Shown: positions 2,694 to 57,225 of the stretch, piece by piece
Numbering within the stretch: position 1 is the first letter of the stretch
Layout: each line of letters starts with the position of its first letter
Notes under the pieces: model-generated
Databases searched by the model: none
Told to the model about the DNA's origin: nothing
Seen by the model: only the letters and a program-made list of their open reading frames with translations
DNA from: Candidatus Melainabacteria bacterium
Lineage (GTDB): Bacteria; Cyanobacteriota; Vampirovibrionia; 2-02-FULL-35-15
Length of the DNA: 64,000 bases
NCBI GenBank assembly: GCA_023250195.1
Contig: JAHFBF010000003.1
Coordinates: 248,001-312,000, forward strand
Reading direction: 5' to 3'
Translations under genes and position numbers: made by a program

Positions 2694-3293
2694 TTATCTT
2701 TTCCAGTATGAATATGCACAACCAGCTAAAGCACCAAGACCTGTTCCAACTATAGGGATAGGAATTAATACTGTGCCAGCAGCAGCCCCAGCCAATGTGT
2801 CTCTTGTGCGGTTAGGTGGAGGAGATGATGAGGATGAATAAGATGAGTACACATAACCGCCTAAAGCACCAATACCTGTTCCAACTCCAGGGATAGGAAT
2901 TAATACTGTGCCAATTAATGCACCGGTAGTTATAGAACTCTTTTTGTGATTAGCTTCAGCCTCTTCTTTTAGAGCGTGTGTTGCAGCTAGTCTGCTGATA
3001 AACACATCTGCATCTCCGCTAAATACTCCATCTTGTTCAAATTTTGCACGAAGTCCTGATTCATTTCTGTCTCTAATGAGATCTTCATAGTTGGATAGTT
3101 CTAGGTGTGCATACATTCCACTCTCAAATGCTTTGAATTCATCAAATTGTGCGTTACCACTAGGGATTACTGAACGTCCATCAGCGAACAAACAGGCACC
3201 CGGCATGAAACCTCCTGCACATGTTCCATAACTAGGTAGTGATGGCAGGTCATTTGCAAATTTAAAACTTGGTATTGCAGCATTGTTTGGCAT
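2694..3293 (-). CDS. VFSGDA-box protein A1 with two glycine-rich hydrophobic hairpins (unknown function)
   Basis: I do not recognise this 199-residue protein. It starts MPNNAAIPSF with no Sec signal. A Gly/Pro-rich front is followed by the box VFSGDA at 90-95, a short charged helix, and two near-identical hydrophobic units (GTVLIPIPGVGTGIGALGG at 128-146 and GTVLIPIPIVGTGLGALAG at 173-191) separated by a Ser/Pro linker. The units have glycine-zipper spacing and could insert in membranes. Paralogue A2 has only one unit, so the second looks like an internal duplication. It shares the TGTCAA-N22-TATAGA promoter signature (3326-3359). The leader contains a run of six C. Confidence 0.65.
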   Translation of the reverse strand: MPNNAAIPSFKFANDLPSLPSYGTCAGGFMPGACLFADGRSVIPSGNAQFDEFKAFESGMYAHLELSNYEDLIRDRNESGLRAKFEQDGVFSGDADVFISRLAATHALKEEAEANHKKSSITTGALIGTVLIPIPGVGTGIGALGGYVYSSYSSSSSPPPNRTRDTLAGAAAGTVLIPIPIVGTGLGALAGCAYSYWKR

Positions 3294-3325: not shown

Positions 3326-3359
3326 TCTATAAAACTGTTGTAAAAAGAGTTTTTTGACA
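3326..3359 (-). promoter_or_regulatory. Shared island promoter signature, gene A1
   Basis: On the minus strand this reads TGTCAA, 22 nt, TATAGA, ending 32 nt before the start codon. An A-tract follows the first box, and AT-rich sequence lies upstream of it. Confidence 0.6.
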
Positions 3360-3435
3360 GTGTAATAGATTAATTTTATTTAAGGTAGTTTTTTTATTTC
3401 ACAGAGATTAAAATATAGTAATCCTCTAAAGTAAC

Positions 3436-3556
3436 GTCATTGTGAAGAGCCACGGAGTTTTATCCGAGGCGACGGGCAATCTCCTAACGTTTGTGAGATT
3501 GCCATGCCTCACGGAGTTTACCCTGAGCACAGCGAATGGGTTTGGCTCGCAATGAC
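3436..3556. repeat. Dispersed repeat R1, copy b
   Basis: It begins GTCATTGTGAAGAGCC and ends GGCTCGCAATGAC, with AATCTCCTAACG and GAGATTGCCATGCC inside. It lies in the 357-bp gap between A1 and A2. The rest of that gap holds the A1 promoter, a degenerate terminator-like hairpin and a third fragment of the M14 peptidase tail. Confidence 0.8.
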
Positions 3557-3650
3557 ATGAAAAACAAAAAAGCTTTGAGATAATAATCAGAACTCTATAA
3601 AAAACATGGGGTGATGTTTGAGGTGGGGATGTTAGGGTAGTTACTCTCTA

Positions 3651-4097
3651 TCAACTGAAGCACCAGCCAAGGAACCCGCCAACAACTGTTCCAACACCAG
3701 GACATATACATGTACCGATTACTGCACCGGTAGTTACAGAACTTCTTGTATGGTTAGTTTCAGCTTCTTCTCTTGCAGTGCGTACTGCAACTGCTCTGCT
3801 GATAAATAAATCCGCATCTCCGCTAAATACTCCGTCTTCTTGAAGTTTTGCACGAAGTCCCGATTCATTTCCGTTTCTAATAAGAGCTTCATAGTTGTCA
3901 AATTCTAGGTGTGCATACATGCCACCCTCAAATGCTCTAAATTCATCAAATTGTGCGTTACCACTAGGAAGTACTGAACGTCCATCGGCAAACCAACAGG
4001 CACCAGGCATGAAGCCTCCTGCAAATGTTCCGTATCCAGGCGCTGATGGCAGGTCATTTGCAAAGCTAAAACTTTGTATTGCAGCATTGTTTGGCAT
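3651..4097 (-). CDS. VFSGDA-box protein A2 with one C-terminal hydrophobic hairpin (unknown function)
   Basis: This 148-residue paralogue of A1 is nearly identical over the first 120 residues (MPNNAAIQSFSFANDLPS, then GGFMPGACWFADGRS, then the VFSGDA box near 90-95). It ends after a single hydrophobic segment (GAVIGTCICPGVGTVVGG), where A1 has two. No signal peptide is present. A GGAGA Shine-Dalgarno-like sequence precedes the ATG. Expression is predicted from the shared TGTCAA-N22-TATAGA signature at 4132-4165. Function is unknown; a membrane-inserting exported protein is one possibility. Confidence 0.65.
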   Translation of the reverse strand: MPNNAAIQSFSFANDLPSAPGYGTFAGGFMPGACWFADGRSVLPSGNAQFDEFRAFEGGMYAHLEFDNYEALIRNGNESGLRAKLQEDGVFSGDADLFISRAVAVRTAREEAETNHTRSSVTTGAVIGTCICPGVGTVVGGFLGWCFS

Positions 4098-4131
4098 ATT
4101 TTTTCTCCGATAATTATCCTGCTTTATCTAA

Positions 4132-4165
4132 TCTATAAAACCGTTGTAAAAAAGATTTTTTGACA
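4132..4165 (-). promoter_or_regulatory. Shared island promoter signature, gene A2
   Basis: The minus strand reads TGTCAA, 22 nt, TATAGA, 34 nt before the start. The 60 bp around it are almost identical to those of A1, which is expected from recent duplication. The more distant family members are therefore the stronger evidence for the motif. Confidence 0.6.
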
Positions 4166-4208
4166 GTGTAATAGATTAATTTTATTTAAGGTAAATTTTT
4201 ATTATTAT

Positions 4209-4304
4209 CCTTGCGAGGGAGCATAAGCGACCGAAGCAATCCCAAACTATTTACATGAAAGCGATTGGGATTGCCACGCCTCATTTTATTCGGCTCGCAA
4301 GGAC
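4209..4304. repeat. Dispersed repeat R1, copy c
   Basis: It begins TTGCGAGGGAGC and ends GGCTCGCAAGGAC. The middle contains GCAATCCCAAAC and GGGATTGCCACGCC, which can pair with each other. It lies downstream of gene B1, in the gap between B1 and A2. Confidence 0.75.
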
Positions 4305-4356
4305 ATAAAAAACATAAAGTTAAGTCTGAGATAAAAATATTACTGGATAATTTTTA

Positions 4357-4860
4357 TTACCACCAGTTACACAGTCTGCCGAGTCCAAATACAGCAAGTG
4401 CTACAGCAGCTACCGCAACTACTACAATAGCTACTACAACAATGACTGGTGCTGTGATTACACATGCGGTTATAATAGCAGCAGTAGCAACAACGGCACC
4501 TGTATATAACATGGCTGTGCCCTGACGCTGATCAGCTAGTCTTCTTGCATTGCCTATTTCTTCTGCTTGTGTTGTTAATCCATTTGCATCTCCTGAAAAA
4601 ACTATTGGTTCTGGTGGTAATGTTTTTTGTACAGCAGTTCCTGCTCCTTCACCACGATGATTATCAATGATTCCTGCCAGAGGCTGCTGAGGTACGTCGT
4701 GAACATAACCAGGGTAATGAGATATAAAATCTGTATGCACCTCTTGTCCAGTTGGAATTGATGGTTGAGTAAATATACCTACAGGCGACCAGTGATACCA
4801 GCTTCCTGGTTGTATTGTTCTTCGCGCGGTGTAAGATGAAGTGGCATCGTTATTTGGCAT
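4357..4860 (-). CDS. VFSGDA-box protein B1 with long C-terminal hydrophobic region (unknown function)
   Basis: This 167-residue protein is not recognised. It has no signal peptide; the N-terminus is MPNNDATSSYTARR. The centre carries YPGYVHDVPQQPLAGIIDN (49-67) and VFSGDA at 87-92. A basic helix follows, then a 40-residue hydrophobic block (about 118-160) long enough for a membrane hairpin, ending CNWW. The order N-terminal MPxN, VFSGDA, helix, TGA, hydrophobic hairpin is the same as in A1/A2, so I group A and B in one family despite low similarity elsewhere. A perfect AGGAGG precedes the start by a few bases. Confidence 0.65.
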   Translation of the reverse strand: MPNNDATSSYTARRTIQPGSWYHWSPVGIFTQPSIPTGQEVHTDFISHYPGYVHDVPQQPLAGIIDNHRGEGAGTAVQKTLPPEPIVFSGDANGLTTQAEEIGNARRLADQRQGTAMLYTGAVVATAAIITACVITAPVIVVVAIVVVAVAAVALAVFGLGRLCNWW

Positions 4861-4893
4861 AATTCCTCCTAGTACTTAGTACATTATCCTCAC

Positions 4894-4927
4894 TCTATAC
4901 AACTGTTGTAAAAAGATTTTTTTGCTA
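4894..4927 (-). promoter_or_regulatory. Shared island promoter signature, gene B1
   Basis: The minus strand reads TAGCAA, 22 nt, TATAGA, 33 nt before the start. The upstream box deviates from TGTCAA at two positions. Confidence 0.5.
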
Positions 4928-4980
4928 GTGTAATAGATTAATTTTTTTTAAGGTAATTTTTAATTATTGTCATAAAAAAC

Positions 4981-5012
4981 AAAAAAGCTCTGAGATATAA
5001 TCAGAGCTTTTT
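4981..5012. terminator. Bidirectional hairpin terminator downstream of B2
   Basis: A stem AAAAAAGCTCTGA / TCAGAGCTTTTT with a 7-nt loop lies 50 bp past the B2 stop. The A and T runs make it a plausible intrinsic terminator on either strand. Degenerate relatives at about 3572-3600 and 4310-4340 follow the neighbouring paralogues. Confidence 0.7.
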
Positions 5013-5061
5013 AAAAGCATGGAGTTAAGTTTGAGATAAAAATTACAGGGTGACTTTTTTA

Positions 5062-5604
5062 TTACCACCAGCTAAATAGCTTACAAATTGCAAATACAAC
5101 AAGCACTGCAGCTACTACAACAAGTCCTACACCAGTACATGATAATAGAGTACCTGTAACGCCAATTGCAGCAAGGGTTGAACCGCCTGCAACTGCTGAA
5201 CCATATAAACAAGCAGCACCAACACCACCAACAACAGCTGCTGTTGTTGCACCATTTAAAGCTTGACGACCGTTTTCGTCTCTTCTTGCAGTGACTATGT
5301 CCTGTGCTTGTCCTTGTAATGCCGTTGCATCTCCTGAAAAAACTATTGGCTCTGGTGGTAATGCTTTTGTTATAGCAGCGTCTACTCCAGAACCACTATG
5401 ATTATCAATGATTCCTGCCAGAGGTTGCTGAGGTACGTCGTGAACATAACCAGGGAAATGAGCTATAAAATCTGAATGTACCTCTGCTCCAGTTGGAATT
5501 CTTGGTTGAGTAAACAAACCTATAACCGGTGTTTTGGTATACCATCCTGCTGGTTGTATTGTTCTTCTTGGTGTATAAGTGGATGTTGCATCATTACTTG
5601 GCAT
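5062..5604 (-). CDS. VFSGDA-box protein B2 with C-terminal hydrophobic hairpin (unknown function)
   Basis: This 180-residue paralogue of B1 shares the start (MPSNDATSTYTPRRTIQP), the FPGYVHDVPQQPLAGIIDNH block and PPEPIVFSGDA. Its hydrophobic tail (about 118-176) is longer, with Gly-rich and Val-rich lobes, and also ends with W-W. There is no signal peptide. An AGGAGA Shine-Dalgarno-like element is well placed before the ATG. The tail sequence differs strongly from B1 while the middle is conserved, suggesting the middle is the functional core. Confidence 0.65.
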   Translation of the reverse strand: MPSNDATSTYTPRRTIQPAGWYTKTPVIGLFTQPRIPTGAEVHSDFIAHFPGYVHDVPQQPLAGIIDNHSGSGVDAAITKALPPEPIVFSGDATALQGQAQDIVTARRDENGRQALNGATTAAVVGGVGAACLYGSAVAGGSTLAAIGVTGTLLSCTGVGLVVVAAVLVVFAICKLFSWW

Positions 5605-5637
5605 AAATTTTCTCCTGTTAAGTTAAGTTATCTTATA

Positions 5638-5670
5638 CCTATAAAACGTGGATAAAGTTTTTTTTTGACA
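5638..5670 (-). promoter_or_regulatory. Shared island promoter signature, gene B2
   Basis: The minus strand reads TGTCAA, 21 nt, TATAGG, 33 nt before the start codon. Confidence 0.55.
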
Positions 5671-5710
5671 GATAAGCAGATTAATTTTATTTAAGGTATT
5701 TTTTATTATT

Positions 5711-5970
5711 GTCATTGCTCGGCTCGCAAGAGGTTATCTCAAAACTACCATTATGGGAATGCAACATTTTTCTAGCATAAAGTCAAAAATGTCATTCCCT
5801 GGCTCGACCAGGGAATCCAGACAAGACTGCTACCGATACTGGATTCCCGCTGGAGTTTACCCTCTGCGAAAGCAGGGGGCGGGAATGACAAGCTACTTTC
5901 AGTCTTTCTATTTTGTCAGAAAAATAGCTAATCCCCATAGGCAGAACTTTGAGATATGCTCGCAATGACG
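5711..5970. repeat. Composite nested repeat, copy 1 (R1 ends, inner element X, R2 core)
   Basis: The outer ends are R1-like (GTCATTGCTCGGCTCGC at left, GCTCGCAATGACG at right). Inside are inverted blocks TATCTCAAAACTACC and AACTTTGAGATATGC (element X). Nested in X is an R2 element at 5791-5889 with ends GTCATTCCC and GGGAATGAC. The same three-level order recurs at 14195-14402 (inverted) and 20974-21272. It fills the 384-bp gap between B2 and the next gene. Confidence 0.75.
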
Positions 5971-5988
5971 TGTTATAAAATTTATTTT

Positions 5989-6924
5989 TTAAGCATATGC
6001 TGCACCCGGTTGTTGCATTTGAGGTTCAGACTTTCTAAATAATTTTGAAGCAAGATTTGTAAGTGAAACACCGCTGCAGACAGTAGCTAATATTGCAAAC
6101 CAGCCTACTGGTCCAGTGAATATTGCAAGACCAATTCCCAAACCAATTCCTATAGGTAGACTCCAGTTGCTGACTGTTGAATTATTTTCAGCAACTTTTC
6201 TTCTTTCATCCAAGAGTTGTACTTGGCTTATCATTGCTTGCTTGTCTGGACAACTGTTTGGTATTAAATGTGTTAAGCTTGCAAAATCTCCCTGTTCAAC
6301 TGCAATCCTAGTTCTTGTTCTGAGATCATCTCTATCGAATGCTGGATTGGCGCTAATCGTTAATGCAAGCTGGTTCCTCTCATTTTCTATAGAGTCTTGT
6401 TTCATGTGGTCATTAACTAATTCACCTACTGCAAAAACTGCTCCAAGAATAGAGCAAAATTTTATAAGACCACCAAACCAACCACCGCCTATTCCGAATT
6501 TGCTAACATAGCCTGCTCTAGTTAAATTATTTGCTGCAGTTAGTTCAGTCCTAGCCAGAGTAGCTGCATCTCTTAATCTAATTGTTTCAGCTATTAAAGC
6601 TGTATCAGTAGGTGCAAGCAAAAGAGCAGCTCTTGATGCTGCTTCTGCTGCTGCTGCATTTGCTGCTGTTGTTGTTGCAGATGCTATAGCTGCTGCTTTT
6701 CCAGTTCCATTAGCCCAGGTTACAGCAGTGCTGATACCTCTATATGCCATATATCCACTGGTTGGGGCAGCGACGAAAGGTTCATAAGGTGCGATAGCGT
6801 TATATGTCTGTTCAAAGCCTGTCTGTGATCCTCGTCTTCCACCACCACCACCACTGGTATTACGTCCAGGTGCTTCTTGCAGTGGGGCTAGCGGAGGCAA
6901 TAATTCAACTTGTAGAATAAACAT
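5989..6924 (-). CDS. Ala-rich helical protein C with two hydrophobic segments (unknown function)
   Basis: This 311-residue protein is not recognised. It begins MFILQVELLPPLAPL, an N-terminus resembling those of proteins H and E nearby (MFIL then prolines), and has no Sec signal. A Gly-rich stretch precedes an Ala-rich helical region (about 75-140). Hydrophobic segment 1 is GGWFGGLIKFCSILGAVFAV (about 150-170) and segment 2 is GIGLGIGLAIFTGPVGWFAI (about 255-275). A charged helical domain lies between them. Two membrane helices around a soluble domain, without a signal sequence, could fit an exported membrane-inserting protein, but this is only a topology guess. The start has an AAGGAT element upstream. 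Confidence 0.6.
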   Translation of the reverse strand: MFILQVELLPPLAPLQEAPGRNTSGGGGGRRGSQTGFEQTYNAIAPYEPFVAAPTSGYMAYRGISTAVTWANGTGKAAAIASATTTAANAAAAEAASRAALLLAPTDTALIAETIRLRDAATLARTELTAANNLTRAGYVSKFGIGGGWFGGLIKFCSILGAVFAVGELVNDHMKQDSIENERNQLALTISANPAFDRDDLRTRTRIAVEQGDFASLTHLIPNSCPDKQAMISQVQLLDERRKVAENNSTVSNWSLPIGIGLGIGLAIFTGPVGWFAILATVCSGVSLTNLASKLFRKSEPQMQQPGAAYA

Positions 6925-6980
6925 TTCTAAAATAATCCTTATATAAAATAAAAGAACATAAAAAAACTGATCTTTATCAT

Positions 6981-7014
6981 AATATATAAAGTAAGCTTGG
7001 TTAAAAAGTTGACA
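6981..7014 (-). promoter_or_regulatory. Shared island promoter signature, gene C
   Basis: The minus strand reads TGTCAA, 22 nt, TATATT, 56 nt before the start. The flanking sequence is unrelated to that of the A/B genes, so the match is independent support for the motif. Confidence 0.6.
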
Positions 7015-7094
7015 GAGAAAATTGGCTGAAAAATATTAATATTTAAAGTTAGCATGAATTTAATAATTAAAATAATTATAGTTATTAATTGATT

Positions 7095-7183
7095 ATCATT
7101 GCGAGGAGCTGCAAAGCAGCGACGTGGGAATTTCATAAACGTTAGAAGATTGCCACGCCTCATTTCATTCGGCTCGCAATGAC
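7095..7183. repeat. Dispersed repeat R1, copy d
   Basis: It begins ATCATTGCGAGGAGC and ends GGCTCGCAATGAC, and contains AAACGTTAGAAGATTGCC, also found in copy a. It and the gene C promoter occupy the 303-bp gap between C and D1. Confidence 0.8.
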
Positions 7184-7227
7184 GTGAAAAGATAAAATTT
7201 ATTTCTAAACAACCACAAAATATTTAA

Positions 7228-8577
7228 TTATGCTCTTGGTACTAAAGAATTTCCTACTGCATTAAGCATTGCAGTTCTTTGTCCATCGGGAGGTGCCTGC
7301 CATGCATAAGTAGTAGTAACTGTTCCCCCAGAAGTAGTTGTTCTTCTCATTAGAGCGTATGGACGACCTGCATGAATATAGAAGAAGTATCCATTTATAT
7401 AATTAAGATTAGCCCAATCACTTGTGGTTCCTACTTGTATTTGCGGGAGAAGTTCTGCAGTGCTAGGATCAAAAGTGTATCGAATTTGTCCTGGACAGTT
7501 ATTTCTTTCTGTATAGGCAGTTGGGCGGGTTGGATCATTTTGAAGGGATTGGGTAATATGATAATTCCCACCAGTCCCGGGTGAAGTGATTGTGAATACA
7601 CCACCTATGTTATCAGGAATAGGTGTACTTGCTGCTGTAGACTGTAGAGCGGGTATTTGAACCCACTGATTAGCTGCATAATTAATTGAAACTCGTGAGC
7701 CTGTTGAACTAGCAGCACCAAGAACTCCTTCACTTGAGCTTCTTGGTCTTAAACCCATCCTTCTAATAAACAATGCTGTATTCGTCTCTTGTGCAGTTAA
7801 ACTACCAGCACCACTTACTGGTAAAAAGCTGGCACCACGGACTCCTCTAGGGTCACCTAATGATCCACCTGTATAACTTAGTGTTCCATTATTACCCGGA
7901 ACGAGTAAAAATTCTCCTGAAGTTGCACTTCCTCCTCTACCATAACTGCAACCACCATTTATAGGTAATAGTCCACCTTGTAAAGCCATAGTTCTGCCCC
8001 ATGCTATGTTGGCATCATCATCGGCAACTACAGCTCTTGTTATTCGTCCACCAGCTCCATTTACAGTAATGATTTGTCGACTGGCAACTGTATCTTCATT
8101 ATCAGTTACTAAAAGTGAACCGTCCGGTAACCAGTAATATCTCTTGGTTGTATCTTCTGTAAGTGCAGTGGGGTTAGAAGGATCGAGTGCAGTTCTTGAT
8201 ATATAACATGGCGGTGGTCCATCTCGAAAGACAAGGCCTAATTGATTAAATAGTACCATTCGATTTCCAGTTCCGCCGCTACCACCAAGAGGGGTTAATG
8301 GTGCACCTATTGGAGGAAGTAATGGTCCACCTGCTTCACCTAGTCCACCGAGTGGAGGAAGTAATGGATTATCTGTTCCTGGAAGTGGAGGAAGTCCTTG
8401 AGGGTTGCCAGCGCCGCCTGGTGGTTGAAGTGGTGGTCCGTCTGGATTTCCGGGAACAGGGATTTGTGCAACAAACATATCCACTCCTCCAGCTCCAGTT
8501 CTAGTTCCTGGTAGTGGAGGTAGAGCAGTAGTAGCTCCTTGAAAAAATGGTGGGAATTGCGATACTCTTATGGACAT
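7228..8577 (-). CDS. Pro/Gly-rich protein D1 (unknown function)
   Basis: This 449-residue protein is not recognised. It starts MSIRVSQFPPFFQGATTALP with no signal peptide or membrane segment. Residues 20-105 are a Pro/Gly linker (repeats of PLPG, LLPPLGG, PVPGN). The rest looks like a beta-rich globular region with aromatic motifs: RYYWLPDGSLL, GEFLLVPGNNG, NNCPGQIRYTFDP, and SDWANLNYINGYFFYIHAG near the end. Lysine is scarce. It is a tandem paralogue of D2. The promoter signature is at 8606-8639. An extracellular or surface role is possible but unproven. Confidence 0.65.
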   Translation of the reverse strand: MSIRVSQFPPFFQGATTALPPLPGTRTGAGGVDMFVAQIPVPGNPDGPPLQPPGGAGNPQGLPPLPGTDNPLLPPLGGLGEAGGPLLPPIGAPLTPLGGSGGTGNRMVLFNQLGLVFRDGPPPCYISRTALDPSNPTALTEDTTKRYYWLPDGSLLVTDNEDTVASRQIITVNGAGGRITRAVVADDDANIAWGRTMALQGGLLPINGGCSYGRGGSATSGEFLLVPGNNGTLSYTGGSLGDPRGVRGASFLPVSGAGSLTAQETNTALFIRRMGLRPRSSSEGVLGAASSTGSRVSINYAANQWVQIPALQSTAASTPIPDNIGGVFTITSPGTGGNYHITQSLQNDPTRPTAYTERNNCPGQIRYTFDPSTAELLPQIQVGTTSDWANLNYINGYFFYIHAGRPYALMRRTTTSGGTVTTTYAWQAPPDGQRTAMLNAVGNSLVPRA

Positions 8578-8605
8578 AATTTTTCTCTTTAATTAGATCA
8601 CTCCA

Positions 8606-8639
8606 AATATAAAAAGCTAAAAGGATAAATTTTTTGATA
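8606..8639 (-). promoter_or_regulatory. Shared island promoter signature, gene D1
   Basis: The minus strand reads TATCAA, 22 nt, TATATT, 28 nt before the start. Confidence 0.55.
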
Positions 8640-8717
8640 GGACATTAAATTTATTTAATATTTTGATTTAGAAAATCTTATTTTGATTATGAAAGAGTTA
8701 AATCTTTATAGAGATAT

Positions 8718-10112
8718 TTAAGGCTTTGGTATTAAAGGGTTTCCTTCAATACCATTCATCTGATTTCTTAGAGCTTCTGAGGAAGGTATTTCCCATCTAT
8801 AGCTGGTTGGAGCTGCTGGAGGACGTTTTTGCCATAGATGATGCTTATACCAAAAAGAATTACTGTCTCCTCTGGTTAGAACTATTGGCTCACCGTTATG
8901 GACATAGAAGAAATTTTTATTTAAGTAATTAAGATTAACCCAGTCACTTGTGAATCCTCTTCTTATTTGTGCATGAACTTCTCCTGTTCCGGGATCAAAC
9001 GTGTATCGAATCTTCCCTGGACAATTATTTCTTTCTTCATAAGGACTTGGGCGGGTTGTATCGTTTGTAAGGGATTGAGTAATTATATAACCACTCTCTC
9101 CACCTGAAGTGATAGAGAATACACCACCGATTTCATCAGCAGGAACAGTTGTATTGGCTCTTGTAGACTGTATCCTATTTATTTGAATCCATTGATTAGG
9201 TTCGGCAGTAATTTTCTCACGTGCGCCGGTTTGAGTAAGAGTAGCAGCACCAAGAACTGTTTCACTGTGCCTTCTTGGTCTTAAACCCATCCTTTTTATA
9301 AAGGCTGCAGTGTTTGCTTGTTCTGGAGTTATAGCGAAAGTTTCACTAGCAGTTCCAGCTAAATTCAAACGGGATCCTCCTGTTGGACCTAATAATCCGC
9401 CTGTGTAATATATCTCTCCTCTATTGCCTGGGACAAGCAAAAATTCTCCTGCACCAGGAGTTGTATTTCCTCCTCTGGCATAACGGCAAGTATCATTTAC
9501 AGGTAATAGTCCACCTTTTAAAGCCATATTCCTACCCCATGCTATAAGCTCGTCATGATTAGCATTTGCAGCTACTGATGATTCTGTACCAGCTCCATTC
9601 ACAGAAATAATTTGTTGAGTGCGATAATCATTGCTAGTTTCTAAAAGTGAACCATCTGGTAGCCAGTAATATCTCTTCTCTGAATTTTCTACAAGTGGAC
9701 TGTTGGTGTTAGCAGGATCGGATGATATTCTTGCTCTATAATAGGGTGCTGGCCCCTCTTTGAATACAAGATTACGGCGGTTAAATAGTACCATTCTATT
9801 TCCAGTTCCGCCACTACCACCAAGAGGGGTTAAAGGTGGACCTATTGAAGGAAGTAATGGTGTTGTTGATGGTGCAGTAGATGTACTATCTATTGGAGGA
9901 AGTAAGTCTATTCCTGGAAGTGTAGGAAGTCCTATGCCACCAGAGCTTGGTGGTGGAAGAGGTGGTCCGTCTGGATTTCCAGGAACAGGGATTTGTGCAG
10001 CAAACATATCCTTTCCTCTAGTTCCAGCTTTTCCTGATATAAGAGGAAGTGAATGTAGAGCAGTAGTAATCCCTTGAAACGATGGTGTAAGTTTCGATAC
10101 TCCGGTGGACAT
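8718..10112 (-). CDS. Pro/Gly-rich protein D2 (unknown function)
   Basis: This 464-residue tandem paralogue of D1 keeps the same architecture: a short N-terminal module (MSTGVSKLTPSFQGITTAL), the block DMFAAQIPVPGNPDGPPL, a Pro-rich linker, and LGGSGGTGNRMVLFNRRNL. Beyond it lie the aromatic beta-like repeats RYYWLPDGSLLE, GEFLLVPGN, NNCPGKIRYTFDPGTGE and SDWVNLNYLNKNFFYVHNG. An 18-residue Trp/Tyr-containing insertion before the C-terminus distinguishes it. There is no signal peptide. An AAGGAA element precedes the ATG. The promoter spacing is 23 nt here. Confidence 0.65.
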   Translation of the reverse strand: MSTGVSKLTPSFQGITTALHSLPLISGKAGTRGKDMFAAQIPVPGNPDGPPLPPPSSGGIGLPTLPGIDLLPPIDSTSTAPSTTPLLPSIGPPLTPLGGSGGTGNRMVLFNRRNLVFKEGPAPYYRARISSDPANTNSPLVENSEKRYYWLPDGSLLETSNDYRTQQIISVNGAGTESSVAANANHDELIAWGRNMALKGGLLPVNDTCRYARGGNTTPGAGEFLLVPGNRGEIYYTGGLLGPTGGSRLNLAGTASETFAITPEQANTAAFIKRMGLRPRRHSETVLGAATLTQTGAREKITAEPNQWIQINRIQSTRANTTVPADEIGGVFSITSGGESGYIITQSLTNDTTRPSPYEERNNCPGKIRYTFDPGTGEVHAQIRRGFTSDWVNLNYLNKNFFYVHNGEPIVLTRGDSNSFWYKHHLWQKRPPAAPTSYRWEIPSSEALRNQMNGIEGNPLIPKP

Positions 10113-10140
10113 AATTTCCTTCTTTAGTTAGATCACTCCA

Positions 10141-10175
10141 AATATAAAAAGATAAGATAGTGATTCTTTTTGACA
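10141..10175 (-). promoter_or_regulatory. Shared island promoter signature, gene D2
   Basis: The minus strand reads TGTCAA, 23 nt, TATATT, 28 nt before the start. Confidence 0.55.
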
Positions 10176-10242
10176 AAAATTAAATTTATTTAATTTTTAA
10201 ATTTGCAATCAAATTTTCTTAAGCTAAAGCAGAGTTAAATTC

Positions 10243-10794
10243 TTATAGTGCTATCCCATCTGCTACAGCAATATAACTTCTCCTGGTTCTTGAAGCTGTT
10301 ATTTGTGCAGCAAATTGTCTATATTGAGCTGCGTTTGCATGACCTGCAATGTTTGTCCATCCTGGTGGGCCTACGGCTGCTCCAAGATGAGTAACAATCC
10401 TAAATTTTGTTCCATCTTGATTTAGTACAAAGAAGTTATTAGTGCCTGGTATTCTAGTTACAGAATCTCCACGTCTACCTGCTCCCCCCCTGTTATATCT
10501 AAATGTTCCATCTTCGAATAAGCCACTTACAGCAGTAGCACCTGCAGGCATAATTCGTGCTGGTAGTGCCTCCCATGCATTAGTTGTAGGATTAAATATT
10601 CTACTAATTGTGTTAACATCTACAATATAAAAAGTATTTGCTCCTAGACCAGCTGCTGTAAGTCCTGTTTGATGAGGGTTTGCAGCATTAAGAATTCCAA
10701 GAGGTAGCAATGTGTTTCCTATTGGCATATTTGGAGGTGCTGCAACTCCTCCAGCAATTGGTGCTCTGGTAGTAGCATTAATTTCTACAAACAT
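10243..10794 (-). CDS. 3' half of frameshifted gene E-prime (Gly/Pro-rich protein)
   Basis: These 183 codons match the C-terminal half of gene E (from MFVEIN onward, through APIAGGVAAPPNMPI, NTFYIVD, IFNPTTNAWEALPARIMPAG and ITASR). The upstream part lies in another frame at 10814-11308. The shift coincides with a run of eight G at 10843-10850, where intact gene E has GGGTGGG (seven bases). A second homopolymer, seven C, sits at 10484-10490. The half could be translated on its own only from the internal ATG at 10794. It is more likely expressed only if slippage restores the frame. Confidence 0.7.
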   Translation of the reverse strand: MFVEINATTRAPIAGGVAAPPNMPIGNTLLPLGILNAANPHQTGLTAAGLGANTFYIVDVNTISRIFNPTTNAWEALPARIMPAGATAVSGLFEDGTFRYNRGGAGRRGDSVTRIPGTNNFFVLNQDGTKFRIVTHLGAAVGPPGWTNIAGHANAAQYRQFAAQITASRTRRSYIAVADGIAL

Positions 10795-10813
10795 TAGAGG
10801 TTGTCCACCTGGA

Positions 10814-11308
10814 TTATGTCTGTAAACTATTCTTGCTGTAGCGGGGGGGGCCTGCTGAACCTCTTGAAATCAGGTCTCCATTATTTCTTATGTCAAATGT
10901 AATTGGTGGTTGTCCACCGCCTCTAAATTGAACAACACTGCCGTTAGGTCTTACAGTAAGTCCTAATTGTCTGGCTAAAAGTGCACTTGATGAAATTCTG
11001 GCTTGGAGTGCTGGTGGTAAAGCTAATGCAGCAGCATCAAGGTCATGCCATGTGATGGCTCCACCAGCTGCTGGTCTTACTCCTACCCTGTGAGGTCCAG
11101 TTCCTTGACCATCTCTATATGAAACAATTACTCTTGGAGGTGCTCCAGGAACAGGTATATTTCCTGGTACAGGAAGATCACCAGTGGGTGGTGCAATAGG
11201 TCCTCCTAACGGTCCTGCTCTTAAAGGTACTCCTCCTCTAGCTCGGAATGCTGCTAGAGCTGGTGGTACTGCTAATGGTCGTCCTAGAGGTGGTAATGGA
11301 TCGGGCAT
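10814..11308 (-). CDS. 5' half of frameshifted gene E-prime (Gly/Pro-rich protein)
   Basis: This 164-codon piece corresponds to residues from about 66 of gene E onward (PLPPLGRPLAVPPAL, then DLPVPGNIPVPG, VIVSYRDGQGTGPHRVGVRP, FDIRNNGDLISRGSAGPP). It then leaves the frame at the G8 tract and ends RYSKNSLQT. It lacks the first 65 residues of E (the MFIL start and the GGPxFGGP repeats). In their place upstream are two hairpins that separate it from its promoter-like signature at 11459-11492. It may be a decaying copy or a phase-variable one. Confidence 0.65.
   Translation of the reverse strand: MPDPLPPLGRPLAVPPALAAFRARGGVPLRAGPLGGPIAPPTGDLPVPGNIPVPGAPPRVIVSYRDGQGTGPHRVGVRPAAGGAITWHDLDAAALALPPALQARISSSALLARQLGLTVRPNGSVVQFRGGGQPPITFDIRNNGDLISRGSAGPPRYSKNSLQT
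10843..10850. repeat. G8 homopolymer at the frameshift of gene E-prime
   Basis: Eight consecutive G in an AT-rich genome sit exactly where the reading frame of E-prime breaks. Intact paralogue E has GGGTGGG at the same place. One base fewer would rejoin the two halves. Confidence 0.85.
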
Positions 11309-11332
11309 ATATTTTCTCGTTTCTATCTACCC

Positions 11333-11406
11333 GCCCTCTTAGCTTGCCAGTCTCGGCAGGCTAAGAGGGCTTTGCTGTAGAGGCTTACCGCAGCAAGCCT
11401 CTACAG
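11333..11406. repeat. Double hairpin between the E-prime promoter signature and its coding region
   Basis: Hairpin 1 (11333-11370) has arms GCCCTCTTAGC / GCTAAGAGGGC with an inner GCC/GGC pair. Hairpin 2 (11375-11406) has 12-nt arms CTGTAGAGGCTT / AAGCCTCTACAG. Gene E has no such insert between its promoter and ATG. The insert lengthens the leader to about 150 nt. Confidence 0.8.
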
Positions 11407-11458
11407 AAGGGTTACATTAGCTAGGCAGTAACATTTTCTCTTTAATCAAATCACTACA

Positions 11459-11492
11459 AATATAAAAAGCTAAGAAGCTATATTTTTTGACA
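11459..11492 (-). promoter_or_regulatory. Shared island promoter signature, gene E-prime
   Basis: The minus strand reads TGTCAA, 22 nt, TATATT. The sequence that follows (TTAAAGAGAAAATG) resembles the leader-start junction of D1, suggesting the original ATG at about 11434 was cut off by the hairpin insert. Confidence 0.5.
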
Positions 11493-11540
11493 GATCAAAT
11501 AATAAATCTTGTGATTATGAAGCAGTTATGATTATGATAA

Positions 11541-12824
11541 TTAATCTGCTGGAGGAGTATAAACTCTACCAGGTGTGCTTCTTGAAGCTGTTATTCGTGC
11601 AGCATATGCTGTATAGGTAGCTGCGTTTGCATGACCTGCAATATTTGTCCATCCTGCTGGGCCTACTGCTGCTCCAAGATGGTTGACAATCCTAAATTTT
11701 GTTCCATCTCGATTTAGCACAAAGAAGTTATTAGTGCCTGGTATTCTAATTAGAGAATCTCCTGCTCTACCTGCTAAAGTACCACCAACACCACATCGGT
11801 ATGTTCCATTTTCAAATAAGCCGGTTACAGCAGTAGCACCTGCAGGCATAATTCGTGCTGGTAGTGCTTCCCATGCATTAGTTGTAGGATTAAATATTCT
11901 GCTAATTACGTTACCAGTTAAAGGGTTAAAATCTACAATATAAAAAGTATTTGCTCCTAGACCTGCTGCTGTAAGTCCTGCTTGATGAGGGTTTGCAGCA
12001 TTAACAATTCCAAGAGGTAGTAAGCTATTTGTTATTGGCATGTTTGGAGGTGCTGCAACTCCTCCAGCAATTGGTGCTCTAGTAACATCATTAATTTCTA
12101 CAAACATTCGAGGTTGTCTACCTGGATTATGTCTGTAAACTATTCTTGCTGTAGCGGGTGGGCCTGCTGAACCTCTTGAAATTAAATCTCCATTATTTCT
12201 TATGTCAAATGGAATTGGTGGTAATCCACCGCCTCTAAATTGGATAACAGTGCCATCAGGTCTTACAGTAAGTCCTAATTGTCTGGCTAAAAGTGCACTT
12301 GATGAAATTCTAGTTTGGAGGTCTGCTGGTAAAGCTAATGTAGCGTCATCGAGGTCATGCCATGTAATGGGTCCACCGGCTGCTGGTCTTATTCCTACTC
12401 TGTGAGGTCCAACTCCTTGACCATCTCTGTATGAAACGATTACTCTTGCAGGTCCTCCGCCTGGAACAGGTATATTTCCTGGTACAGGAAGATCACCAGT
12501 GGGTGGTGCAACAGGTCCTCCTAAAGGTCCTGCTCCTCCTAAAGGTACTCCTCCTCTATCTCGGAATGCTTGTAGAGCTGGTGGTACTGCTAATGGTCGA
12601 TTAAGAGGGGGTAGTGCTGTTGGTGGGTCTCCTCCTATTTGTGCAACCGGTTGTGGTGGTTGAAGATTCAAGTATGGTGAGATAAATACAGGGCCACCAA
12701 AACCAGGACCACTAGCATTAAGAAAAGTTGGTCCTCCAATATTATAGTAAGGTGTAATATATGCAGGGCCGCCAAAACCAGGACCACCAGGACTAAAGGC
12801 AAGACGATTATATAAAATAAACAT
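11541..12824 (-). CDS. Gly/Pro-rich protein E (unknown function)
   Basis: This 427-residue intact paralogue of E-prime begins MFILYNRLAFSPGGPGFGGP. The N-terminal 60 residues contain two GPGFGGP(A/V)(Y/F)I repeats. A Pro-rich linker (DLPVPGNIPVPGGGP) and a beta-like body follow: VIVSYRDGQGVGPHRVGIRP, FDIRNNGDLISRGSAGPP, MFVEINDVTRAPIAGG and FNPTTNAWEALPARIM. There is no signal peptide and no membrane segment. AAGGAG precedes the ATG. The PVPGN linker motif is shared with D1/D2, so D and E may be related in construction. Function is unknown. Confidence 0.65.
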   Translation of the reverse strand: MFILYNRLAFSPGGPGFGGPAYITPYYNIGGPTFLNASGPGFGGPVFISPYLNLQPPQPVAQIGGDPPTALPPLNRPLAVPPALQAFRDRGGVPLGGAGPLGGPVAPPTGDLPVPGNIPVPGGGPARVIVSYRDGQGVGPHRVGIRPAAGGPITWHDLDDATLALPADLQTRISSSALLARQLGLTVRPDGTVIQFRGGGLPPIPFDIRNNGDLISRGSAGPPATARIVYRHNPGRQPRMFVEINDVTRAPIAGGVAAPPNMPITNSLLPLGIVNAANPHQAGLTAAGLGANTFYIVDFNPLTGNVISRIFNPTTNAWEALPARIMPAGATAVTGLFENGTYRCGVGGTLAGRAGDSLIRIPGTNNFFVLNRDGTKFRIVNHLGAAVGPAGWTNIAGHANAATYTAYAARITASRSTPGRVYTPPAD

Positions 12825-12872
12825 TTATGGTTTCTCCTTGCTGGTTTTTTTTGTGGATTTAAGATTCATCTA

Positions 12873-12906
12873 TAGATAAAAAGGAATTGCGGAATAAAAG
12901 TTGATA
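12873..12906 (-). promoter_or_regulatory. Shared island promoter signature, gene E
   Basis: The minus strand reads TATCAA, 22 nt, TATCTA, 48 nt before the start. The surrounding sequence is unrelated to the other copies. Confidence 0.5.
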
Positions 12907-13006
12907 TTAGATACGGAAAAATGTGATGAATGTTCTATATAATATGATTAATTTTTTTTAATTTAGTTAAGCACTGGTTAAAGCTTAATAAAGTTTTTAG
13001 AACTAC

Positions 13007-13040
13007 TGTCAAATTTTTTCTATTCATGTCTTTGTATGGT
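13007..13040 (+). promoter_or_regulatory. Possible island-type promoter signature facing gene F
   Basis: The plus strand reads TGTCAA, 22 nt, TATGGT. The first box and the spacing match the minus-strand set exactly, but the second box is weaker. It lies about 370 nt upstream of gene F, so a long leader containing the tandem 83-bp repeats would be needed. Confidence 0.3.
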
Positions 13041-13150
13041 ACGAGGTAGTAGAATCTATTTTACTATTTCAATATAATATATAATTTTTTGTTTTTAACT
13101 TGATATTACTTTGTAGTATTAAGTTGATTTCAAAAAATATATTTAATAAT

Positions 13151-13312
13151 AATTTAGAATCTTTATGTGAATAGCTTATTGGCTTTTTTAAAGCCATGAT
13201 GAGACTTTTTGCATGATGTTCTAAGTTAATAACAATTTAGAATTTTTGTGCAAATAGCTTATTGGCTTTTTTAAAGCCATGATGAGGCTTTTTGCATGAT
13301 GTTCTAAGTTAA
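13151..13312 (+). repeat. Tandem duplication of about 79 bp (period 83) upstream of gene F
   Basis: Copies at 13151-13229 and 13234-13312 share AATAGCTTATTGGC, the small hairpin GGCTTTTTTAAAGCC, TTTTTGCATGATG and TTCTAAGTTAA, with few differences. They take up much of the 583-bp gap between divergent genes E and F. Beyond them and the promoter boxes I see only AT-rich sequence there. Confidence 0.85.
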
Positions 13313-13407
13313 CGATAACTTAACCTATATTCTAGGAAGCAATTGCTGTTTGAATTATGGCTTGTTTCTCTGGTGTATGGTTTAGATAGTTATAATTTGA
13401 GGTTAAA

Positions 13408-14109
13408 ATGTTTATAGGTGCAGTTTCTAATGTAGGTCCACTCTGTAATGCCGCTTATGAGGTAGTTCGCGGTGCAGTTAGATTAACCGCTGGAAGCTGT
13501 ATTAGTTTTGGTGCAGGCGGATTGGCATCAACATCAGGAGTTGCACCAGCAGCACTTACTAGTCCCGGTTGGATAACTGGTGTATTAAATTGGATTAGAA
13601 ATTTTTCTTTTACTGGGAATAATGCGCTTAGAGCAAGTGGTGTAATACCTGAATTTTGGAGATGTATTGGAAATCTAAATTTTAGAGGATCAACTCTTTT
13701 AACAAGTCTTAGAGGTTTAAGTGGTCCTGGTATGGGGGTTCTTGCTATAACGGGTCTTATTGGTGTTATCGGACTAGGTCTATCTGTCAGAAATGCTATT
13801 TCAGATTTTGGAACCCTTAATGAGATTTCACATGATAGAAGTATGGAAAATGTTAGGAGTCCCATATATCATATGGGGAAAGTAGCTTCAGATGTAACAA
13901 TGGCAACAGGTTTTGGAATGCTCCTTTTTGGAGGGGCTTCAGCTGCCTTCCCTGTAATAATAGCTGGTGTTGCTGGTCTGGGTATATGTAAGATTATAGA
14001 ATGGTTTAGTTCATCAAGAAATCCAGCAAATAATGAAGGTGCAAATTTATGGTTCCCATTAAATCATATTCTGGCATTGTTTAAGAGCAATAATTTAAAC
14101 GTTAGTTAG
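13408..14109 (+). CDS. Hydrophobic-segment protein F (unknown function)
   Basis: This 233-residue protein is not recognised. It starts MFIGAVSNVGPLCNAAYEVV, again an MFI start with no cleavable signal. Two hydrophobic segments stand out: MGVLAITGLIGVIGLGLSV (about 111-129) and GFGMLLFGGASAAFPVIIAG (about 169-188, continuing to CKIIEWF). The linker between them is polar (ISHDRSMENVRSPIYHMGK). This resembles protein C in layout. It is the only island member on the plus strand in this stretch. GAGGT lies 8 nt before the ATG and TATAAT about 14 nt before it. Confidence 0.6.
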   Translation: MFIGAVSNVGPLCNAAYEVVRGAVRLTAGSCISFGAGGLASTSGVAPAALTSPGWITGVLNWIRNFSFTGNNALRASGVIPEFWRCIGNLNFRGSTLLTSLRGLSGPGMGVLAITGLIGVIGLGLSVRNAISDFGTLNEISHDRSMENVRSPIYHMGKVASDVTMATGFGMLLFGGASAAFPVIIAGVAGLGICKIIEWFSSSRNPANNEGANLWFPLNHILALFKSNNLNVS

Positions 14110-14194
14110 TTTCTGTAATATATGGAGTTTCCATGCAAAGCCCATAACTGTCAGGATAAGGACACGAAACATTCCTGAAAGCCTTTGCCAGCAT

Positions 14195-14402
14195 GTCATT
14201 GGAGCATATCTCAAAACTCTGTGTATAGTGAAAGTAGCTTGTCATTCCCGCCCCCTGCTTTCGCAGAGGGTAAACTCCAGCGGGAATCCAGTATCGGTAG
14301 CAGTCTTGTCTGGATTCCCATTTTCATGGGAATGACAATTGACCTTATGTTGAAAAAATCAGTTAAGCTCATAGTAGGACTTTTGGAATAGCCTCCAATG
14401 AC
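14195..14402. repeat. Composite nested repeat, copy 2 (inverted)
   Basis: The ends are GTCATTGGAGCATATCTC and GCCTCCAATGAC. An R2 element lies inside at 14241-14336, with CTGGAGTTTACCCTCTGCGA-type sequence of copy 1 in reverse orientation. It dominates the 516-bp gap between F and G. Nothing else in that gap looks like a gene. Confidence 0.75.
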
Positions 14403-14625
14403 GTATAATAGAAAGCATTTAGACAGCTATGTGGTTAAGCCAGTGAATAACAAAACGAATTATTTACTTGCCAGAGTCTTACTATTTTGAAGCTAGATCT
14501 TTTCTTTAAGACTAATCATGAAAATCTTAATATTTTGGGGTTGTTAATTTAACCTTAACTTTGATATAAAAGAAGTATAAGGCTGTAATTAGTTTTATAT
14601 TTAAGATTGAAAAAAGGGATTAAAA

Positions 14626-15054
14626 ATGGAAGATTCTAGCTATGCAGTAGCTTCATATCAAACACAGCTTGCCAAAGGTGCTGCTCGGCTTGCTTACCAG
14701 ACACAGAAAACAGCTACAAAGGTTGAAGCAGTAAATCGAGAAATAAAAACACTTCAATCTAAAGGTAGTCCAGTCCCGGAGAATCTGTCCAGAAAAGCAC
14801 ATGCTCTATGTGCAGCATCGAGATATTCTTTTGAAGCTGGGAAGTTGCTGGATCAAGAGACTATTGCTTTTGCAAGCAGTGCTATTCAGAGAACAGAGGC
14901 GATAGCCGGGGAACTGAAAAAAGAAGGAACTGGAGAAAAGAAGGAACCTGCTGCAACAACAGAGGCTAAAGCTAAAAAAGCTGTTAAAGATTCAAATCCT
15001 GATGTAGCACAAGCTAAAAAAGCTGCTAAAGATACAAATCCTGTTACTGCTTAG
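14626..15054 (+). CDS. Ala/Lys-rich helical protein G (unknown function)
   Basis: This 142-residue protein is almost entirely predicted helix (YQTQLAKGAARLAYQTQKTA near the start), with an Ala/Lys-rich tail holding the repeat KAKKAVKDSNPDVAQ / AKKAAKDTNPVTA (about 114-142). It has no signal peptide, membrane segment or cysteine-rich site. The composition recalls DNA-binding or coiled-coil proteins, but no family is recognised. A fragment of a second copy of its tail lies at 15201-15248. Confidence 0.6.
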   Translation: MEDSSYAVASYQTQLAKGAARLAYQTQKTATKVEAVNREIKTLQSKGSPVPENLSRKAHALCAASRYSFEAGKLLDQETIAFASSAIQRTEAIAGELKKEGTGEKKEPAATTEAKAKKAVKDSNPDVAQAKKAAKDTNPVTA

Positions 15055-15091
15055 CTTATGCAATATTTCTGAGTAGACTATTTATACGATA

Positions 15092-15120
15092 AAATTTTGA
15101 CGATTCAATCGTCAAAATTT
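15092..15120. repeat. Perfect 13-bp palindrome after gene G
   Basis: Arms AAATTTTGACGAT and ATCGTCAAAATTT flank a TCA loop, starting 38 nt past the stop. It could act as a transcript-stabilising hairpin or weak terminator. No T-run follows, so termination is uncertain. Confidence 0.6.
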
Positions 15121-15200
15121 GTATAATATTACAAGTAGCAGACTGTGAGCACATTGCAAAGCTTAACAAGCGAAGAATGAGCGAGGAATGCGGTAGGTAG

Positions 15201-15248
15201 AAACCAAATCCCGATGCAGCAGAAGCTAAAGTTAAAAAAGCGGCTTAA
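15201..15248 (+). pseudogene. Remnant of the C-terminus of a second G-like gene
   Basis: The bases encode KPNPDAAEAKVKKAA followed by a stop, matching the repeated tail of protein G. No start or body precedes it; the sequence between is unrelated. It marks a deletion within a former tandem pair. Confidence 0.65.
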
Positions 15249-15251
15249 CTA

Positions 15252-15521
15252 TTATGAGAACATTTGCCTGACAGCTTCCCACATATTTTTCACATAACCA
15301 TTACTTATCTGAAATAATGTCTTAGTACCTTCTTCCATATTTTTATGATCAGTCATTTGTCCTTGGTATGTTGCTCTTTGTTCTGCAGTTAAATCTGAGC
15401 GGCCTAGTTGTCCTGCAAGCCAGGTTTGTCGTCCTGCAATATCATTCATTCGTTGTGCGGCTGCTCTCACGGTTAGTCCCGCATTAAAGGGTGGTAGAAC
15501 AGCTGGTATTAAAATAAACAT
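15252..15521 (-). CDS. Small helical protein H with MFIL start (unknown function)
   Basis: This 89-residue protein begins MFILIPAVLPPFNAGL, close in style to protein C (MFILQVELLPPLAPL). The remainder is a predicted helical pair (RAAAQRMNDIAGRQTWLAGQ, then LTAEQRATYQGQMTDHKNME, then YVKNMWEAVRQMF). It has no signal peptide. Its size and all-helical character recall small exported substrates, but no family match is claimed. AAGGAC lies upstream of the start, and the promoter signature is at 15557-15590. Confidence 0.55.
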   Translation of the reverse strand: MFILIPAVLPPFNAGLTVRAAAQRMNDIAGRQTWLAGQLGRSDLTAEQRATYQGQMTDHKNMEEGTKTLFQISNGYVKNMWEAVRQMFS

Positions 15522-15556
15522 ATATTTGTCCTTAAATGTCTTTTATTACTTCTCAT

Positions 15557-15590
15557 GATATATAAAGCAATGAGTAGGAAAAATTTGATA
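15557..15590 (-). promoter_or_regulatory. Shared island promoter signature, gene H
   Basis: The minus strand reads TATCAA, 22 nt, TATATC, 35 nt before the start. Confidence 0.55.
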
Positions 15591-56394: not shown

Positions 56395-57225
56395 TTATTT
56401 CGGATTCTTTTTGTTTGTTAAATTTAACTTGTTGCCAAGTAAAATTCTCTGGAGCTCTGCAGTAGCAGCTCTTAGTCTTCTTGAAACCTGCATCTGGGAA
56501 ATCCCAAGTCTTCTGGCAACCTCAGTTTGACTTAAGTCTTGATAAAAAGTCATGCTGATAACTTCTCTTAGATTATCTTTTAGTTGTTTAATTGCGCTTT
56601 GTAGCATTATATTATCTTCTTCAGAACTGAATTTAATTTGATGTGAACTGTCTTCAAGTGTATCTAGCAATAATTGTTCACTTGTTCCATCAGTAGTTAA
56701 AGTCTGGTCTAATGAGATAAGAGTTCTTCTGCGATCCACTTCATAAGCTTCTGAAATTTTATCTGGATGTATCTGCAGAACCTCAGCTACTTCTGCATCT
56801 GATGGTTCTCTGCCTAGTTCGTGGATTAAGTCCTGAACTAATCTTGAAATTCTAAAACTTAATTCCTGTAACTCTCTTGGAGCTCTGATCATTGCTGTCT
56901 TATCTCTAAGGTAATGCCTTATTTCCCCTGTTATTAAATGTGTGGCATATGTATGAAATTTTGCTCCTGCAGTTGGATCAAATTGTTCTATTGCTTTAAC
57001 TAAACCAATACTGCCAACCTGAATTAAATCGTCGACAGGGTCTGTACTTCTTCTTGCTAAACCATAAGCAATTCGTTTAACAAGTGATATGGTTACTTGA
57101 ACAATTTTGTCCCTGATTGTTTTATCTTTGGTTTTGTTATATTCAGAAAGTAGTTTATGAATATCTTTGCTATCGATATCAGTATCGATATTTGTTGAAT
57201 TTGTATTTAGAGGCTGGGGTAACAT
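56395..57225 (-). CDS. Alternative sigma factor (SigB/SigF/SigG type)
   Basis: The 276-residue sigma-70 family protein lacks region 1.1. Region 2 shows DDLIQVGSIGLVKAIEQFDP and AKFHTYATHLITGEIRHYLR. Region 3 is ELQELSFRISRLVQDLIHEL onward, and region 4 ends with the helix-turn-helix LSQTEVARRLGISQMQVSRR. The layout matches the SigB/F/G group found in Gram-positives and cyanobacteria. No anti-sigma gene is adjacent. TATAAG lies 8 nt before the ATG. It is a natural candidate, unproven, for recognising the unusual promoter set at 3-15.6 kb. Confidence 0.85.
   Translation of the reverse strand: MLPQPLNTNSTNIDTDIDSKDIHKLLSEYNKTKDKTIRDKIVQVTISLVKRIAYGLARRSTDPVDDLIQVGSIGLVKAIEQFDPTAGAKFHTYATHLITGEIRHYLRDKTAMIRAPRELQELSFRISRLVQDLIHELGREPSDAEVAEVLQIHPDKISEAYEVDRRRTLISLDQTLTTDGTSEQLLLDTLEDSSHQIKFSSEEDNIMLQSAIKQLKDNLREVISMTFYQDLSQTEVARRLGISQMQVSRRLRAATAELQRILLGNKLNLTNKKNPK

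Follow-up and report, generated by a model that had tools for sequence, protein, structure and literature searches.

The window analysed here is a 64,000-nucleotide stretch from a Candidatus Melainabacteria bacterium (G000:C2:248001-312000; genome G000, 2.21 Mb in 7 contigs, 98.9% complete), and it carries an accessory island in which ten minus-strand genes (A1, A2, B1, B2, C, D1, D2, E', E and H) each follow a promoter-like site. The first-pass annotation had described this site as a TGTCAA-like hexamer with a TATA element 21-23 nt downstream, and all ten sites are indeed present. The gap between hexamer and TATA is 22 nt in eight of them (A1, A2, B1, C, D1, E', E and H), 21 nt in B2 and 23 nt in D2; the hexamer of B1 is TAGCAA, the E site terminates in TATC, and the distance to the start codon is 30-58 nt, or 152 nt in E'. 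In its refined form the motif consists of a -35 element TRTCAA, a 17-bp spacer and a -10 element CTTTDTATA. Sites were scored with a weight matrix built from 86 training sites, window sites excluded; most of these match the refined motif exactly and so give a biased picture of the variation that is tolerated. The ten sites, the open reading frames (ORFs) that they precede, and one further site absent from the earlier list are as follows.

3328..3359, minus strand: A1 promoter site, ORF 2694-3293; TGTCAA-N17-AGTTTTATA with a variant -10, matrix score 10.2.
4134..4165, minus strand: A2 promoter site, ORF 3651-4097; TGTCAA-N17-GGTTTTATA with a variant -10, matrix score 11.6.
4896..4927, minus strand: B1 promoter site, ORF 4357-4860; TAGCAA-N17-AGTTGTATA, weak, matrix score 3.9 (within noise).
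5640..5670, minus strand: B2 promoter site, ORF 5062-5604; TGTCAA-N16-CGTTTTATA, matrix score 12.9.
6983..7014, minus strand: C promoter site, ORF 5989-6924; TGTCAA-N17-CTTTATATA, exact genome match, matrix score 29.7.
8608..8639, minus strand: D1 promoter site, ORF 7228-8577; TATCAA-N17-CTTTTTATA, exact genome match, matrix score 26.1.
10143..10175, minus strand: D2 promoter site, ORF 8718-10112; TGTCAA-N18-CTTTTTATA, matrix score 14.4 after spacing penalty.
11461..11492, minus strand: E' promoter site, ORF 10814-11308; TGTCAA-N17-CTTTTTATA, exact genome match, 152 nt from the start, matrix score 23.7.
12875..12906, minus strand: E promoter site, ORF 11541-12824; TATCAA-N17-CTTTTTATC, matrix score 22.1.
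15559..15590, minus strand: H promoter site, ORF 15252-15521; TATCAA-N17-CTTTATATA, exact genome match, matrix score 32.7 (highest in the window).
13007..13038, plus strand: additional site, 369 nt 5' of ORF 13408-14109 (product starting MFIGAV); TGTCAA-N17-CTTTGTATG, matrix score 23.5 (fifth best in the window).

Trained outside the window, the matrix returns nine of the ten listed sites among its ten best window matches, the remaining one being the plus-strand site at 13007. At a score of at least 10 the window holds 11 matches, where Markov-shuffled copies average 0.7; one of the 11, at 47147 (10.1), falls inside a housekeeping ORF, and the upstream regions of the window's housekeeping genes lack the motif, as had been reported. 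The evidence is weakest for A1, A2, B1 and B2, whose -10 is the variant NGTTDTATA, and B1 is kept in the set by the homology of its flanks to those of A1, A2 and B2. Owing to the variant -10 and the partly homologous flanks, the A and B promoters add less than those of C, D1, D2, E', E and H. Two features of the island concern the sites with long leaders. Near-identical direct repeats (AACTTAGAACATCATGCAAAAAG...) occupy about 13130-13330, between the plus-strand site and ORF 13408, and may be the cause of its 369-nt leader. The E' gene (10243-11308, minus strand) is split into ORFs 10814-11308 and 10243-10794, which between them match the E protein, itself intact. The break lies at a C run near 10850, and the gene may be a pseudogene or contain a phase-variable tract.

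How far the motif exceeds chance depends on how it is drawn. Counts were made by pattern search, with the reversed pattern as control. As a loose pattern the signature fails as evidence in itself: the window holds 23 matches to TRTCAA-N22-TATA with one mismatch, where 19.6 +/- 3.9 are expected, and TRTCAA-N21-23-TATA occurs 90 times in the whole genome, against 80 for the control. When the hits of the loose pattern are read, however, all the convincing ones have CTTT preceding the final five bases, and the extended motif TRTCAA-N17-CTTTDTATA stands far above chance, with 17 exact genome sites against none in the control and 34 against 9 at up to one mismatch.

Thirteen of the 17 exact sites lie outside the window, and 14 of the 17 lie 3-75 nt upstream of an ORF of at least 89 residues; of the other three, the E' site stands 152 nt and the L036 site 180 nt from its ORF, and L043 is ahead of a short ORF. 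The sites of L043 and L053 (G000:C6:386432 and C4:227354) precede ORFs of 30-40 residues that resemble single-pass membrane peptides. The motif is thus present in the island, as the first-pass annotation had it, but is not restricted to it: it marks a regulon that extends across the genome and the family and has a sigma-factor gene among its members. Nine Melainabacteria families were sampled, namely f1, the window's own family (11 genomes), f4 (9 genomes) and seven further families (40 genomes together). Summed over per-genome counts, exact motifs number 82 in f1 (4 in the reversed control) and 50 in f4 (2 in the control), and in the seven other families they are not enriched (6 against 9). 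The motif precedes dozens of genes across f1 and f4, mostly orphans plus one conserved sigma-factor gene, which bears out the regulon proposed earlier.

The motif also leaves a phylogenetic footprint. At one syntenic promoter, 17-153 nt past a conserved gene for a 153-aa protein (A4), 10 of 10 f1 assemblies keep both elements while the spacer diverges freely, a pattern that rules out recent duplication as a general explanation; the gene that follows the motif, at 70-96 nt, is likewise syntenic but has diverged strongly. The motif, its enrichment, its lineage restriction, its position before genes and its syntenic conservation are all computational observations. A conserved bipartite -35/-10 element ahead of many unlinked genes, the mark of an alternative sigma regulon, is found here, and the signature is a real promoter with a real regulon.

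The geometry of this promoter is more ordinary than had been supposed. The spacing had been taken to be about 5 bp longer than usual, which does not hold: the conserved block is CTTTDTATA, so the spacer is an ordinary 17 bp, and the apparent 21-23 nt arose because TATA alone was taken as the -10. By contrast, the observation that TGTCAA differs from TTGACA stands and can be extended, as neither TRTCAA nor CTTTDT matches the RpoD/SigA consensus. Counting the first T of TRTCAA as position 1, several start codons fall at position 36 or 38, only 3 or 5 nt past TATA, and in two small families (L136/L151/L075 and L187/L207) these starts are backed by homolog alignment. Of 63 f1 sites whose leaders are longer, 51 have a pyrimidine at position 35, 41 a purine at position 36 and 47 an A at position 38. 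Both the close start codons and this base bias fit a transcript start at 34-38. In four f4 genomes the Shine-Dalgarno sequence of the sigma-factor gene mentioned above lies immediately 3' of the motif, an arrangement that best fits a start at 34-35 and worst fits TATA as a -10 hexamer. From these sequence features, transcription would begin about 4-6 nt after the last A of TATA; a start near 36 would place TRTCAA at -35 to -30 and CTTTDT at -12 to -7, separated by the 17-bp spacer.

The earlier suggestion of a dedicated sigma factor or activator remains a fair one, with a sigma factor the likelier of the two. Nine genes of the sigma-70 family are present in the genome. One of them encodes sigma X (L058), a group-2 (RpoD-like) factor, and its gene is the most conserved target of the motif, which precedes it in 16 of the 18 promoters checked (11 of 11 in f1, 5 of 7 in f4). 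Orthologs of X occur in all 11 f1 genomes (72-100% identity) and in seven f4 genomes (61-64%); outside f1 and f4 the best matches reach at most 58% identity, so that close orthologs share the confinement to these two families. Because its gene is the most conserved target, X would either read the motif and regulate its own gene or be one node of a sigma cascade. In f1 the promoters of X (e.g., L038, L067, L069 and L096-L104) also have a conserved spacer, with CTTAACCTC just 5' of the -10, unlike other promoters of the regulon; this is perhaps the site of a second regulator.

Sigma X is the leading candidate for the reader, a tentative assignment that is somewhat less than an even bet, and several points weigh against it. 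Two f4 genomes, G028 and G033, have no good site before X. Regions 2.4 and 4.2 of X retain the canonical RpoD contact residues, from which promoters of the TTGACA/TATAAT type would be predicted. An RpoD-like factor of family f6 branches next to X, in a tree that carries a long-branch warning, yet f6 lacks the motif. The same contact residues, which the primary sigma factor shares, lend some plausibility to a different arrangement, in which TRTCAA would be bound by an activator peculiar to the lineage, and TATA would be a -10 read at long spacing by the primary factor or by X. TATA resembles half of TATAAT, and at f1 sites TRTCAA is preceded by an extra C and followed by a T-tract. However, CTTT is conserved as strongly as TATA in chance-corrected counts, and a TATANN -10 would give a transcript from position 39 or later, past the start codon wherever ATG lies 3-5 nt from TATA. 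The activator arrangement is unlikely.

It is also distinctly improbable that another sigma factor common to f1 and f4, of the SigF type, the SigG-type extracytoplasmic function (ECF) group or the FliA type, gained the specificity for the motif. Orthologs of all three occur in both families, a SigF-type gene lies within the window at 56395-57225, and the f1 genomes tested lack canonical sigma-28 sites though they retain a FliA-like factor (exact searches of G000 and G009 gave none). Against this, the motif was not found in the 200 nt upstream of SigF-, SigG- or FliA-type genes; the SigF and SigG types, class-wide and with no obvious shared change, are also present in f3 and f5, both of which lack the motif; and the GG-rich extended -10 of known SigF and SigJ promoters (PMC6495340, PMC2758279) is absent from it. 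In f4 canonical sigma-28 sites precede flagellin genes (L278, G023:C31), so FliA is rejected as the reader, for f4 only; the flagellin locus L328 of f4 has no TRTCAA site, and flagellin there is not under the motif. Each of the 47 genomes that have a clear FlhA/SctV gene also has the FliA-like factor, as does G033. L060, an RpoD-like factor with altered residues in regions 3.0 and 4.2, occurs only in f1 and is rejected as a common reader. No ECF factor of the genome has a distribution matching the motif, L061 and L065 not having been traced through relatives; the gene of L065 adjoins a DnaC-like gene. Chance in an AT-rich genome combined with duplication of adjacent genes, which would draw on the homologous flanks among A1, A2, B1 and B2, and likewise among D1, D2 and E', and on the chance level of the loose pattern, is very improbable and already contradicted. 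As the first-pass annotation argued, likeness is not due to duplication only: the surroundings of C, E, H and the 13 exact sites beyond the window are unrelated, and the 132 exact sites of f1 and f4 would have to be copies of one repeat. Enrichment, lineage restriction, the free-spacer footprint and recovery by the outside-trained matrix stand against this explanation as well.

On balance, the signature is probably the core promoter of an alternative sigma factor that drives a lineage-specific orphan regulon. It would be a complete core promoter (-35 TRTCAA, 17-bp spacer, -10 CTTTDTATA) read by an RNA polymerase whose alternative sigma specificity is confined to two of the nine families sampled. 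It would drive mostly orphan, fast-evolving proteins, including those of the window's island, with X either reading and autoregulating its own promoter or sitting as a node in a sigma cascade.

Such a promoter differs from those it most resembles. The sigma-28 (FliA) promoter is TAAAGTTT-N11-GCCGATAA, with the -35 TAAA and the -10 GCCGATAA about 15 bp apart. It is likewise bipartite, its regulon is tied elsewhere to flagellar-type export, and f1 has a FliA-like factor; however, both elements are unlike those of the motif, and in f4 canonical sigma-28 sites coexist with it as a separate set. ECF41 and ECF42 promoters have, like the motif, a TGTC-containing -35 and a spacer of 16-17 bp, but their -10 is CGTC-like, and the resemblance is a lead only. 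RpoD/SigA promoters (TTGACA-N17-TATAAT) and cyanobacterial group-2 promoters (PMC2758279) share the 17-bp spacer, and X belongs to group 2, whereas the invariant TRTCAA and CTTTDTATA are off consensus and the essential A at -11 is missing. The SigJ promoter of Nostoc punctiforme, whose J-Box (GGGaAtacT) is part of the hormogonium sigma cascade (PMC6495340), is also a lineage-wide element first recognised by its consensus, with a large regulon that includes another sigma gene (sigC in Nostoc). By contrast, the J-Box, an extended -10, contains GGG and is paired with a weak -35, and members of its regulon have known roles; here both elements are strong, GGG is absent from the -10 CTTTDTATA, and the genes are orphans. 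No account of such a promoter in Melainabacteria or Vampirovibrionia was found among open-licence PubMed Central papers, and its novelty is provisional.

The products of the regulon are Pro/Gly/Ala-rich or small helical proteins, and only a handful of 91 representatives from f1 and f4 match any Pfam domain. They mostly lack signal peptides, in agreement with the earlier reading: by a crude heuristic, N-termini resembling signal peptides occur in 4 of 108 regulon proteins and 15 of 129 background ORFs. Many begin with MFI or MFL (MFILQ, MFILY, MFILI or MFILD) and carry no recognised signal, among them those of the C, E, H and F ORFs, L040, L052, L142 and L248. A query with the D1 protein against named genomes found no relative. 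PHROGs gave no support for a phage origin beyond matches to a sigma factor and an acetyltransferase and single weak ones. The f1 genomes (G000-G010) encode an FlhA/SctV-type protein, which matches FlhA best but falls below the curated cut-offs of both the FlhA and the SctV model, an adjoining FliI/SctN-type ATPase and a FliA-like sigma factor; no flagellin was detected in any of the 11, and the set would represent a flagellin-less or non-flagellar type III apparatus. In G000, G008 and G009 a distance of about 13 kb separates the footprinted site from the FlhA/SctV-type gene; the site belongs to a conserved cluster of small genes that encodes a ~120-aa MFI-type protein, an 88-aa helical protein and the 153-aa A4, followed by the motif, a hypervariable protein of 80-108 aa, a 61-aa protein and one of ~470 aa.

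L248:2396-4200, L251, L253 and L315-L322: the conserved f1 cluster of small genes, with the FlhA/SctV-type gene about 13 kb away.

The cluster proteins tested belong to no Pfam or NCBIfam family, and neither effector nor needle homology was found. One regulon family of 88-91 aa is confidently predicted to form a two-helix hairpin, another model being of low confidence; without an informative sequence or fold match, the hairpin does not identify these helical proteins as needle proteins, and that candidate was rejected. Signal peptides are scarce, the proteins evolve fast, and one conserved site lies in the neighbourhood of a flagellar-type export gene where flagellin is undetected; on these grounds the regulon is a candidate list of exported proteins, and export of its products is a reasonable hypothesis. 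In the fullest scenario, a group-2 sigma factor of the RpoD-like kind, or some partner of it, would have switched to TRTCAA/CTTTDTATA, would autoregulate and would activate orphans exported by a flagellin-less type III-like apparatus, possibly for cell contact; taken with all its parts, this is rather unlikely.

The finding raises the question of whether a sigma factor with canonical contacts reads such a promoter, or something else does. The promoter class defined here would escape scans for standard sigma consensus sequences, and the motif offers a sequence-based entry to a large set of genes without functional annotation in uncultured, non-photosynthetic relatives of the cyanobacteria.

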